From NCBI GenBank assembly GCA_030550615.1, contig JAUQPA010000010.1:1-38148 (forward strand): a stretch of DNA of 38,148 nt, read 5' to 3'. The stretch is from Thermoproteota archaeon. Its GTDB lineage: Archaea; Thermoproteota; Thermoprotei_A; Sulfolobales; Desulfurococcaceae. Of this stretch, positions 1,053-10,162 are shown in pieces. The notes beneath the pieces were generated by a model. It was not told where the DNA came from and did not search any database. It worked only from the letters and a program-made list of their open reading frames with translations. A program made the position numbers and the translations under genes. Positions within the stretch are counted from its first letter, which is position 1. Each line of letters begins with the position of its first letter.

Positions 1053-2114
1053 ATGGTGGTGTGTTTGAGTATTGATTGGAGCCGTGTTTACAGTGCTAGT
1101 GGTTTCCGCGATGGTGTTTTCAGTGTTTGTGCTTCAAGCGGTATGGTTTACGCTGTGGGTTTTGACGAGGTTCCAGGACCGGGCTTAATGAGGTATAGGG
1201 TTGAATCATACAGGGCTAGTAGCGGTGAGAGAGCTGGAGCGTGGAGTGATGAAAAAGGTTATCCATACGCTACGCTCTCATCGTGCAGCGTGCTCGGGGA
1301 TAAACTATACGTAGCTGGCGCTACCAGCGGGTTCTGGAGTATACTCGAGTTCAATAAGGATTTAAAACTCGGTAGGAGAGCTGATTTCAATGAGCCTTGT
1401 TTTAATCCTTTTTCAATGATAGCGCTGGATAATTACCTGTACCTAGCTGGTGTGTTAATTGAAAATGGCTATGGGAAAAGCATATACGTTGCTAAGATTG
1501 ATTTAAGTGATTTGATAATGGTTAAAAGCAGGGAGATCAAGTTAAATAGCTCTAGTACAGGTGCATACGTAATCGAATACGATGTTAAAACAAATCAACT
1601 AGTCCTCGGCGGATTCACGGAGAGTAATGGTGAACCAGAGTGGCTTATCCTGTATTTGAGCAGAGAATTGGAGCCATTGAAGTACCTGAGACCCGGGTTT
1701 AGAAACGCGATTACCGGTTTAGCAGTAGACTATGATGGCTACATATACGCTGTTGATGGAGCCAGAGTAGTAAAGTTAACGGTTGACGGCAAGGTACTAG
1801 CTGTGAGTGATAATACGCCGGGCGTGAAGATATATGCTGAGAAAAGCAAGGCTTCACCGTTGAGACAATATGTAATCGTGGCATCAAATGATTCTATATA
1901 TATCCTGGCGAGTCGTGATTTGAAAACAATAGCTAGTTTGAAACTACCTAGCGAAAAACCACTGCAGGCTAATCCTGGGAGAATTAGCTCTGAAAGCAAC
2001 CATGTTTACCTAGCTTTAACTCAAATAGCTTCGAGAAATAACTGGAATTGGGCAGTATACGCTCTCGGGATCAAACCCCAAGGTTTATTCGCGAGGATTT
2101 TTAGGAAGCATTGA
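1053..2114 (+). CDS. Beta-propeller-like protein of unknown function
   Basis: A 353-residue protein without signal peptide or membrane segment, so probably cytoplasmic. It consists of repeated beta-strand units with short hydrophobic strands ending in turns: VYAVGFDE, LYVAGATSG, LYLAGVLIENG, LVLGGFTESNG, YIYAVDGARV, IYILASRDLK and VYLALTQ. The pattern resembles SBBP/delta-60-type propeller repeats with six or seven blades, though exact boundaries cannot be set by eye. No catalytic motif is visible. It lies between two groups of pilin-like genes and ends five bases before the convergent pilin-like gene, but no functional link is shown. ATG 1053 was chosen. The GTG codons directly after it are possible alternatives because no strong ribosome site decides. 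Confidence 0.65.
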   Translation: MVVCLSIDWSRVYSASGFRDGVFSVCASSGMVYAVGFDEVPGPGLMRYRVESYRASSGERAGAWSDEKGYPYATLSSCSVLGDKLYVAGATSGFWSILEFNKDLKLGRRADFNEPCFNPFSMIALDNYLYLAGVLIENGYGKSIYVAKIDLSDLIMVKSREIKLNSSSTGAYVIEYDVKTNQLVLGGFTESNGEPEWLILYLSRELEPLKYLRPGFRNAITGLAVDYDGYIYAVDGARVVKLTVDGKVLAVSDNTPGVKIYAEKSKASPLRQYVIVASNDSIYILASRDLKTIASLKLPSEKPLQANPGRISSESNHVYLALTQIASRNNWNWAVYALGIKPQGLFARIFRKH

Positions 2115-2119
2115 AGATA

Positions 2120-3259
2120 CTATTGGGTTGTCCAGTAAACAGTGTAGCCTGCTCCGACAACCGCTATGTACTCCAATCTAATTCCAGTTATCTCAATGCT
2201 TTGAGCAGTCATCTCCATTCTGATAACTAAGTTGTAATTACCCTGAGGCAACTGCTGGCCAAAGGCTCTTATGGGAAATATAGCTGAACCAAAAATCGTC
2301 GCAACATTTTGTTTAGCACCACCGGTGGTAACCGTTGCAGGTGATTGCAGCGTTGCATTTTCATTAAATATCATTACTGATGGGTAAACAGCGATCTGTT
2401 GTGCTACTCCTCCTCCGCTACTTACGACTAATATCTTAAAGTATACTGTTAGAATATCAATGTATTCTGTGACATTCAAAATGTTTCTGAACACGAAGAC
2501 TATGGTACCATTTTTGAAGTTGTTAGCACTCCACTCTTTGTACGTAGAAGAAGATGTGCAGTCACTCGCTGTTGTAATTATTAGTTCATTAATACCATTA
2601 CCGTCGGCATCTGAGTTTATGTTTTGTCCTGGAATAATATTTTTATTGAACATGCTACTACAGTACCAGGTATTCGTGTAGTTATATATTACAGCATACG
2701 TGCTTCCAGATATATTAGCATAGATGTACATTTGTTTTAATCCCCGCACTATTTTAGTAGTATTCAATATATCTTCGCTTGTAAACATTCCCCCAGATGA
2801 GTAATAGATGTTTATTTGTGATTGCTGTTGCTGAATACACATTGACTCCACGGGGAACACGTTTCCACGAGATGAAACGGCATAGTCTATTTTGTCAATG
2901 TTTAAAATAGATTTAATCTCAGTTATGCTTTTATTTCCTCCTGGCTGAAGAGTCATCGTTGAGTATAAGCTAGGTGGGATATCAATGGGTTTACCTGCAA
3001 ACCATATTCTCGTAATTGTTAAGGGGATGTTACCGGTATTTCTAATATAGCAAACCCCTCCAGAAACCAATGCATCCAGTTGCTCAAATGATTTTTCTGT
3101 TTCGAAGAGCGTTCTCCTGGATATTCCGGTTACAGATGAAGATGATAGTTTACCAAGACTCGTTAACACAAAGCCCATTGATATTATCAACGCTGTTAAT
3201 ACTATTATTCCACCTATTACTTCTGATTGACCCCTGAGTTTTCTACGTTTTCTAAGCAT
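2120..3259 (-). CDS. Large pilin-like surface protein with class III signal peptide
   Basis: About 379 residues. The N-terminus MLRKRRKLRGQSEVIGG is a basic segment followed by RG|QSE, the archaeal prepilin cleavage pattern, then a hydrophobic helix to about residue 40. A long beta-rich, Ser/Thr/Asn-rich exterior domain follows. The chosen ATG at 3259 has an excellent ribosome site (GGAGGTG) directly upstream and overlaps the stop of the preceding gene as ATGCTTAG. An ATG at 3283 would lengthen the basic tail but has no such site. The two genes are therefore translationally coupled. The domain is much larger than in filament-forming pilins, so this could be a minor or tip subunit. I do not recognise the exterior domain. 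Confidence 0.75.
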   Translation of the reverse strand: MLRKRRKLRGQSEVIGGIIVLTALIISMGFVLTSLGKLSSSSVTGISRRTLFETEKSFEQLDALVSGGVCYIRNTGNIPLTITRIWFAGKPIDIPPSLYSTMTLQPGGNKSITEIKSILNIDKIDYAVSSRGNVFPVESMCIQQQQSQINIYYSSGGMFTSEDILNTTKIVRGLKQMYIYANISGSTYAVIYNYTNTWYCSSMFNKNIIPGQNINSDADGNGINELIITTASDCTSSSTYKEWSANNFKNGTIVFVFRNILNVTEYIDILTVYFKILVVSSGGGVAQQIAVYPSVMIFNENATLQSPATVTTGGAKQNVATIFGSAIFPIRAFGQQLPQGNYNLVIRMEMTAQSIEITGIRLEYIAVVGAGYTVYWTTQ

Positions 3260-8135: not shown

Positions 8136-8966
8136 CTATGTATTATCAACTAGCTGTTCTACTTGTTTTATTACTATTCCGTCTCCTTGTTTAACTCTGA
8201 GTTTTGCAGCTGCATTACCTTTATTAACAGCTATTTCGAAGTAACCCCATGAGTTAATGTAGCAAGCTAACTCGCCTTCAGGAACTCTGCTGAAGCTTGC
8301 TTCGAAAACGCATGTATGTATTGATGCTCCTGCTTCAATGTTTATTTTTGAACCAAAAGACGGGTTTAGCTTTGATAAATCCATGTTGCTTATGTTGGTC
8401 ATGATGTTTCCAAACACATCTATGTATACCACGGTTGCTTTAATTGACTTATCGCGTTCATTAACTATTGGTTTTTCAAATGTTAACTTCACTATTTCGC
8501 TATAGCTGATTTCCTCCCCCACTTCTTCTAATGGTACTCCTTTACTAATCCACGCAGCTACAGGAGCGAATATATCTCTTCCATGGAAAGTATAGGAGAC
8601 TTCAGGTAACTTATACTTCGAGTTAGATATATCAAATACTCGTTTAACACCGTCTTGTTCAGCAAGTAGTGTTAGGCAACCGTTATCTGGACCTAGTAGA
8701 ATATAGTTACTTGTCTCTATTAAAATAGATCTCCTTGAGCTACCCACCCCTGGATCCACCACGACTACGAAAACAGTGTTCCTCGGGAAATACTTGGCTG
8801 AAACAGCTAGGATTACAGCTGCCTCCAGGATGTTGTGTCTTTCAACTCCATGTGTTAAATCAATAACCTCAGCTTCTGGATTAATGGATTTAATGACTCC
8901 TTTAACTACTCCCACGTATGGATCTCTGTAGCCGTAGTCAGTCAATAGCACAATTAATTTCTTCAA
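8136..8966 (-). CDS. SAM hydroxide adenosyltransferase (DUF62)
   Basis: A 276-residue cytoplasmic enzyme. It begins KKLIVLLTDYGYRDPYVGVVKG, the DUF62 signature, then has VVVDPGVGSSRR and TFHGRDIFAPVAAW. The Asp and Arg of the second motif and the His of the third are the conserved triad of this family, which hydrolyses S-adenosylmethionine to adenosine and methionine. Fluorinases and chlorinases are relatives, but their substrate-specific insertions are not apparent. The C-terminal beta domain (from about residue 170) binds the adenine. Start TTG 8966 follows AAGGTTG. The gene converges with the UPF0016 gene seven bases away. Physiological role is uncertain, perhaps SAM turnover. Confidence 0.85.
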   Translation of the reverse strand: MKKLIVLLTDYGYRDPYVGVVKGVIKSINPEAEVIDLTHGVERHNILEAAVILAVSAKYFPRNTVFVVVVDPGVGSSRRSILIETSNYILLGPDNGCLTLLAEQDGVKRVFDISNSKYKLPEVSYTFHGRDIFAPVAAWISKGVPLEEVGEEISYSEIVKLTFEKPIVNERDKSIKATVVYIDVFGNIMTNISNMDLSKLNPSFGSKINIEAGASIHTCVFEASFSRVPEGELACYINSWGYFEIAVNKGNAAAKLRVKQGDGIVIKQVEQLVDNT

Positions 8967-9031
8967 TTTTTCAACCTTTCAGGGGGTTTGTAGTTATTTA
9001 TAATAATCCTTAAATGTAATAATTATTTAAC

Positions 9032-9137
9032 GCCGGGGATGGAGTCGACGGGCGGCCTGATGCGTGATGATTGTTGACGCGTTCAACCCGGCTATTGTTC
9101 CGATGATTAACAGCGGATAAGCTGATGCCCGTGATGT
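9032..9137 (+). ncRNA. Candidate C/D box guide RNA or related structured RNA
   Basis: A GC-rich island in AT-rich intergenic DNA, about 25 bases downstream of a TATA-like CTTAAATG (9009-9016). It contains CTGA (9057-9060), a three-base spacer, then GTGATGA (9064-9070), the exact D'/C' box arrangement of archaeal C/D RNAs. The 13 bases before this CTGA are complementary over 10 contiguous bases to the universal 16S helix 44 sequence CCGCCCGTCG, and the base five positions from the box pairs with C1402 (E. coli numbering). A second CTGA (9122-9125) with TGCCC and GTGATGT follows. An upstream C box is only approximate (GGGATGG, 9036-9042). GCCGGG (9032-9037) can pair with CCCGGC (9087-9092), and GTTGA-CGCGT-TCAAC (9073-9087) forms a hairpin. 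RNA ends are estimates. Confidence 0.5.
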
Positions 9138-9214
9138 ACCAGCTCTTAATGAGGTTTTTAAATGCTTAATTCTATTTCATACTTGATGATTCAATGGTTA
9201 ATGAGGTGTTTTAA

Positions 9215-10162
9215 TTGTCATCTGGTTTAACTACTAGGTGCTTATTCAAGAACACCTGGTATTTATCAAGTAGCGGCTTTAAGTACGGTTATGTATTCGT
9301 CTATGGAACGAGGATTCAGGATGATGGTGAAGGCGAACCAGATCCCGAGCTTGAGTTATCCGAGCTAGTATATGATTTCAATGGAGATGCTGTTATAGCT
9401 CACGGTTATAGTTTACTAGTAGATATTGTTGAATACGTTGTAAGAGGACTCAGCGGCATCGATCTAAGCGTATTCACGAGGGAAGAGCTTAGGAAAATAG
9501 CTAAAGCTGGATTAGTAAACGCATATATGAATGGTATAACTCTACCTGTAGCACGGACAAACCACCCGGAGGTCATAGTGGATATTGCAAGAGAAAATAG
9601 CTTCAGAATAGGAATCATAGCTGATAGAGGAACTGTTGCAAGAAACCCATTCATTGTTCTACTTGAATTAGATGGTCAATGGGTTTACTTAGATGACAGG
9701 AAAATAGGTGAGTATTCAACAGTAATTTGTAAGCCCAGTGAACCCAGAAACACCTGTATACTCCCGGATGCTAGAGGATACGGTAACATCACTACAGCTA
9801 TTGAAGAAACATACACTACAGCTCGTGACCCATTATTATCATTCAGAATACTAACAAACTTCTATAGGACAACTGGAATAGACAATGGTTTCGTTGAGAA
9901 AGGATCTGCATCAGATTTAATCATATATGATTTGAAAAACCCATTGAAAACAATGCCGTTGATAACTCTAGAGCATCCATATAAACTACTCGCGAGGTCG
10001 CAGCAACCCGATGTAGTTTTCATTGGGGGAGACGTGTTTTACGAGCAAGGAGAAAACCTAGCTATACCAGTTGTAAAAATAAATGAAATAATAAAAAAGA
10101 AATTGAGAAAAGAGAATTCACTACTCAACCAAACGGAACTTCTATCAAATAAATCCACTTAA
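9215..10162 (+). CDS. Degenerate amidohydrolase-like protein
   Basis: A 315-residue protein. The C-terminus (GSASDLIIYDLKNPLKTMP, then QPDVVFIGGDVFYEQGENL) is the composite beta domain of the amidohydrolase superfamily (guanine deaminase/chlorohydrolase type). An N-terminal part (REELRKIAKAGLVNAYMNGIT) fits the first barrel helices. The metal-binding HxH that should follow the first strand is replaced: AVIAHGYSLLVDIVEYVVRGL sits where families have NAHTHL. The protein is about 100 residues shorter than usual and the later barrel histidines are not recognisable. It is probably not a classical metal hydrolase. TTG 9215 is preceded by GAGGTG (9203-9208) and a TATA-like TTTTTAAATG near 9155. Function unknown. 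Confidence 0.6.
   Translation: MSSGLTTRCLFKNTWYLSSSGFKYGYVFVYGTRIQDDGEGEPDPELELSELVYDFNGDAVIAHGYSLLVDIVEYVVRGLSGIDLSVFTREELRKIAKAGLVNAYMNGITLPVARTNHPEVIVDIARENSFRIGIIADRGTVARNPFIVLLELDGQWVYLDDRKIGEYSTVICKPSEPRNTCILPDARGYGNITTAIEETYTTARDPLLSFRILTNFYRTTGIDNGFVEKGSASDLIIYDLKNPLKTMPLITLEHPYKLLARSQQPDVVFIGGDVFYEQGENLAIPVVKINEIIKKKLRKENSLLNQTELLSNKST

Follow-up and report, generated by a model that had tools for sequence, protein, structure and literature searches.

The C1402 base of the 16S rRNA lies at the ribosomal P site, and in bacteria its ribose is methylated by proteins. In yeast, human and plants the equivalent position carries a Cm guided by snR70/SNORD43/AtU43 (PMC3511168, PMC11542601), and in the 16S of P. 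abyssi the equivalent residue is also a Cm, Cm1376 (PMC7005279). Hoeppner and Poole, after Gaspin et al. 2000, gave the archaeal sR12 of Pyrococcus and Sulfolobus as the counterpart of snR70 (PMC3511168). The original prediction for the DNA studied here had set a guide RNA against the bacterial protein route; this contrast is less striking than it was presented, because eukaryotes use a C/D snoRNA and P. abyssi has Cm there (PMC3511168, PMC7005279). Regarding the architecture of the particles, published work describes the C/D RNPs of archaea as symmetric and dependent on both motifs, and most yeast guides as keeping C/D without a functional C'/D' (PMC7994747, PMC8413462).

The window, that is, the whole stretch of DNA analysed here, comprises 38,148 nucleotides from a Thermoproteota archaeon of the Desulfurococcaceae (GenBank assembly GCA_030550615.1, contig JAUQPA010000010.1). 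We hold it highly likely that its interval 9032-9092, here called RNA A, is the descendant of a double-guide box C/D sRNA and guides the methylation of C1402, mainly or only via D', and that 9099-9154, here called RNA B, is independent of it. The guide kind itself is already known; what is new is a predicted C1402 guide RNA that is closed by a stem and has no box D. The features are the following:

8997-9004, plus strand: TTTATAAT, a candidate promoter for RNA A that resembles a TATA element, taken from the consensus of 33 upstream regions
9032-9092, plus strand: RNA A, putative C1402 guide RNA closed by a terminal stem, based on BLAST and covariance-model homologs and on the alignment A1
9032-9037, plus strand: 5' arm GCCGGG of the terminal stem of RNA A, six pairs, all with compensatory changes
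9038-9041, plus strand: GATG, remnant of box C, flush with the stem, the 3-nt bulge being absent; invariant in A1, and flush in the family
9046-9055, plus strand: D' guide core CGACGGGCGG of RNA A, which matches the organism's own 16S; antisense to 16S C1399-1408, with C1402 at N+5
9057-9060, plus strand: box D' CTGA of RNA A, invariant in A1
9065-9070, plus strand: box C' TGATGA of RNA A, predicted to form a k-loop with D'; invariant in A1
9071-9082, plus strand: second guide slot TTGTTGACGCGT, in place of the family guide CCATTGTAGC; it pairs with the own 16S, its function being uncertain without box D
9083-9086, plus strand: TCAA in the place of box D; 31 of 31 family copies are without CTGA in this slot
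9087-9092, plus strand: 3' arm CCCGGC of the terminal stem of RNA A, covarying
about 9099-9154, plus strand: RNA B, a separate C/D-like sRNA with conserved homologs, variable spacing to RNA A and a weak match to Rfam sR58
9100-9106, 9122-9125, 9132-9137 and 9149-9152, plus strand: boxes of RNA B, namely CCGATGA, D' CTGA, C' TGATGT and a D-like ATGA
9111-9120, plus strand: D' guide core CAGCGGATAA of RNA B, conserved

The D'/C' pair noticed in the original prediction is found at 9057-9070 as CTGA-TGCG-TGATGA, after the antisense stretch CGACGGGCGG, and it is invariant in the homologs. The 10-base complementarity to helix 44 that had been claimed was borne out by the organism's own 16S, where CGACGGGCGG forms 10 Watson-Crick pairs with CCGCCCGTCG. 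Opposite the fifth base upstream of CTGA (N+5) sits the equivalent of E. coli C1402, in a numbering that we anchored on the ACCGCCCGTC block, which we take to be universal. As a single sequence the match is suggestive and modestly better than chance, with 14 of 600 composition shuffles of the guide also reaching 10 pairs somewhere in the own 16S and 23S. These modest statistics are what speaks for a chance resemblance with no function, a reading that the conservation and the covariation over many genera make extremely improbable. The observation is settled by the homologs and their conservation, and not by the 10-base match, which is weak when taken alone.

Within the window's genus, BLAST gave matches to the segment with E values down to 4e-47 and identities up to 90%. 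A covariance model of RNA A built on 21 sequences had matches in 36 of the 40 family genomes and in 124 of the 229 class genomes (E<=0.01). The D' and C' boxes and the guide core are invariant in the 21 aligned homologs (A1), save one C/T in the guide that keeps the pairing with 16S as G.U. Furthermore, an unbiased scan for the pattern ACGGGCGG-N-CTGA-N3-6-TGATGA across a collection of 84,980 species showed a strong archaeal enrichment, with 32 archaeal loci among the 80 listed. Nearly all of these archaeal loci are recognisable C/D sRNAs, Sulfolobales and Altiarchaeota included, and four-box forms occur there. The proposal of a C/D-type guide aimed at C1402 is thus supported by the geometry on the own 16S, the conservation, the covariation of the stem and the presence of fibrillarin and Nop5 genes; likewise, the covariance and box search with the host's 16S (10 pairs, C1402 at N+5, homologs in more than half of the class genomes) came out in its favour. 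It is very probable that RNA A guides the methylation of C1402 in the decoding site, and the distribution of its homologs suggests that this base is methylated via a guide RNA in many Thermoproteota.

We also made some observations on individual loci. In the Altiarchaeota loci L046, L058 and L110 the C1402 guide at D' is the same and the second guide is a different one (GATGAACAACCA), therefore the D' guide is the part conserved across phyla. In four loci of Sulfolobales type (L280, L290, L291 and L294) the four-box ortholog begins within about 10 bases downstream of the 3'-end of a tRNA gene, which suggests a tRNA-sRNA dicistron. Near the RNA A homolog of L215 there is a sub-threshold match to Rfam HgcC (2098-2229, minus strand, 34.1 bits against a cut-off of 50).

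Regarding the terminal stem, all six of its pairs have changed on both sides and 96.8% of the cells are paired, a covariation that the shuffle and slid controls came nowhere near. Its sequence is mostly GCCGGG/CCCGGC, and elsewhere GTGAGAA/TTCTCAC, TACCCC/GGGGTA or CCCC/GGGG. The bulge between the stem and GATG is 0 nt in the window's family, whereas a kink-turn would need 3 nt; the stems of the copies in L007 and L009 are flush as well. All 26 family copies that were scored have an A adjoining the 3' arm. CTGA stands in the D slot of 11 of 11 copies from family f2 and of none of the 31 distinct copies in the window's family. In f2, in both f7 copies and in most of f11, families of the same taxonomic order, RNA A is a double guide that ends in a box D CTGA. 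Flush stems are also present in f5, f6 and f8, where the D position sometimes reads ATGA, CGGA or CTGA, and for this reason the flush stem probably arose first and the decay of box D came later. The strict D'-C'-D pattern retrieved only three other C/D genes in the window's genome. A separate observation concerns the copy of L263 (f6), which has intact GATGA and CTGA boxes together with a 7-bp flush stem, TTGGACC/GGTCCAA, and may be a transitional form linking the kink-turn and stem-closed states.

As to the class of RNA A, it has D' and C' in k-loop spacing and an rRNA guide with an N+5 target, both proper to a C/D sRNA, but neither the box C RUGAUGA, nor the box D CUGA, nor a terminal kink-turn with a 3-nt bulge. 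By homology it belongs with accepted four-box members, in which its D' guide and boxes recur along with the second guide known from most of the family. Since it falls two boxes short of the strict four-box definition, we regard it as derived from the C/D sRNAs and as probably still working like one. The four-box orthologs (for example L251, L280 and L273, from Sulfolobales and other Desulfurococcales) have the D' guide, D' and C' of RNA A and a second guide to the 16S site that most of the window's family has but, unlike this family, keep a box C RUGAUG with bulge (f2) and a box D CTGA.

Among the described RNAs, archaeal sR12 has the same predicted target base and belongs to the same RNA class as RNA A, whereas the window copy is without box D and bulge and has a covarying stem. 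We did not adopt the name sR12, the consensus of Rfam sR12 (RF01147) being without the GGGCGG guide. The target of SNORD43/snR70/AtU43 is equivalent to the predicted target of RNA A, although they belong to a different domain of life and convergence is possible. The consensus of Rfam snoR07 (RF01585) contains CGAUGGGCGGACUGA, which is nearly the guide of RNA A plus the D' box, a similarity due to the same target; nevertheless, snoR07 is a longer snoRNA and matches RNA A weakly (19.6 bits, the cut-off being 44).

Other kinds of feature were considered for the same interval. An H/ACA k-loop hairpin was rejected on inspection, since CTGA/TGATGA is not enclosed by a continuing stem and the sequence after 9092 is without the 3' ACA. 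A protein-coding reading was rejected with no ORF of at least 80 aa across the interval, and another known RNA was rejected as well, the Rfam gathering matches in the window being two tRNAs only.

The second guide is more variable than the first. In the window, the 12 nt of TTGTTGACGCGT all pair with positions ~1353-1364 of the own 16S (10 Watson-Crick pairs and 2 G.U), a grade of pairing that 6 of 600 shuffles matched. The guide CCATTGTAGC pairs 10/10 with 16S ~1233-1242, which none of 600 shuffles equalled. This sequence, or a close form of it, is the second guide of the four-box orthologs. It is retained by the majority of family members from other genera, and the window's genus has other sequences instead. 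The spacing from the second guide to the stem is also variable in the window's family. Two other genomes, G002 and G004, have TTGTTGACGCGT too, with one mismatch each against the 16S of the window's organism; a search for 16S in the assemblies of G001, G002 and G004, all with a changed second guide, gave no match. Since box D is absent, no methylation site can be firmly assigned by the N+5 rule to the second arm of the window, which may be a case of re-targeting or of drift.

An arm that pairs 12/12 with the nearby h43 of 16S, yet has no box D, would also suit a 16S assembly chaperone that does not methylate; chaperone roles have been proposed for archaeal C/D sRNAs (PMC4644070, PMC7994747). 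We consider this unlikely for RNA A, whose D' and C' are invariant beside the guide, as catalysis requires, and whose predicted target carries a methylation in each of the three domains (PMC7005279).

From the sequence we infer the transcription of RNA A, its assembly into an RNP and the methylation of C1402, and we propose the following course. RNA A would descend from an archaeal double-guide box C/D sRNA. L7Ae would bind its C'/D' k-loop, Nop5 and fibrillarin would then join, the D' guide would pair with helix 44 of 16S, and fibrillarin would methylate C1402 at its ribose. A GC-rich stem abutting the GATG...A remnant would have taken over from the terminal box C/D kink-turn in the window's family. 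The second guide would have been lost or re-aimed in the window's genus, so that RNA A would act mainly or only through D'.

Given the reported need for both motifs (PMC8413462), the fact that boxes C and D are off consensus in the window's family counts against a guide. One way in which RNA A could still be a guide is an RNP with a single internal k-loop, where L7Ae would sit only at C'/D', a straight GC helix would take the place of the kink-turn and the second arm would be free; we put the chances of this somewhat under even. If true, such an RNP would mirror the arrangement of most eukaryotic C/D snoRNAs, and the both-motifs rule for archaea would no longer hold. The asymmetry of the window's family is the opposite of that of most yeast guides, in which C/D is kept and C'/D' is non-functional.

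Alternatively, RNA A might be an ordinary C/D sRNA whose terminal part becomes a non-standard kink-turn on L7Ae binding, the stem being a clamp and both guides being active. Base 1n is always A, the GA of the C strand is invariant, and a kink-turn whose position 2n is A can still be bound by L7Ae (PMC3985660). Furthermore, beyond the window's genus the family has mostly kept CCATTGTAGC with its perfect 16S match. However, beyond the tolerated A at 2n, RNA A is without the 3-nt bulge too, and the would-be bulge bases are part of a covarying helix; the D slot has no CTGA in any of the 31 copies, the spacing between second guide and stem varies, and the window's genus dropped that guide. We regard this alternative as possible, although we lean against it. 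Returning to RNA A as a stem-closed descendant of a double guide, its family has kept the C1402 guide unchanged despite a dropped box D and kink-turn bulge, and it thereby offers a test case in nature for the need of archaeal C/D RNPs for two L7Ae sites.

The original prediction had also noticed a second D/C-like pair at 9122, from which a longer or double guide with internal hairpins was considered. The pair is real but belongs to the separate RNA B, and the interval 9032-9137 in our reading holds two neighbouring genes, 9099-9154 being an independent sRNA. In favour of one longer RNA, only about 7 nt separate A from B in the window, and co-transcription of the two is conceivable. Nevertheless, the A-B spacers vary among the relatives, G016 has A and B on opposite strands, and each element is found without the other, with no B found beside A in L006 and no A found beside B in L022. 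The joint fold of the 138-nt stretch is no better than that of shuffles (z -0.21), and it pairs the guide of A with GCCCGT of RNA B, a segment absent in the closest relative. We thus rejected the single longer RNA as very improbable.

Homologs of RNA B were found in L002-L023, L070, L081, L101 and L059, and its guide core CAGCGGATAA is conserved as strongly as the C1402 guide of RNA A. The search for a target of this guide gave no good site in the own 16S or 23S. Against the tRNAs read by ARAGORN, the only match was one of 8 bp to the anticodon stem of tRNA-Leu(UAA/CAA), with U39 at N+5 and mismatches adjoining D'; we take this tRNA as a weak lead for a target. The ends of Rfam sR58 (RF01308), CCCGAUGA...CUGAGG, are similar to those of RNA B (20.3 bits against a cut-off of 55), but the guides differ and the boxes alone carry the similarity. 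In several genomes a tRNA-Ile follows B, whereas the window has a tRNA-Ile on the opposite strand at a distance of about 1.2 kb.

Regarding the genomic setting, the upstream neighbour is a divergent SAM hydroxide adenosyltransferase gene (8136-8966, minus strand), and the downstream neighbour is an ORF of 315 aa (9215-10162, plus strand) with no Pfam match. An AT-rich block is common to 33 distinct upstream regions, where it precedes the stem by about 27-35 nt, which suggests that RNA A has its own candidate promoter. The genome has archaeal-type 16S and 23S genes, and fibrillarin and Nop5 genes that are adjacent on C29. A search of the genome, which is 93% complete, gave no enzyme of the RsmI type, and therefore the RsmI protein route is without support here. 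Finally, the match of the own 16S gene (L001, 1501-3308) spans 1,808 bases against a model of 1,478 positions, and 16S matches of 2,000-2,570 bases occur in some relatives (also in L130, L131, L132 and L133), which suggests insertions or introns in the 16S genes of this organism and of these relatives.
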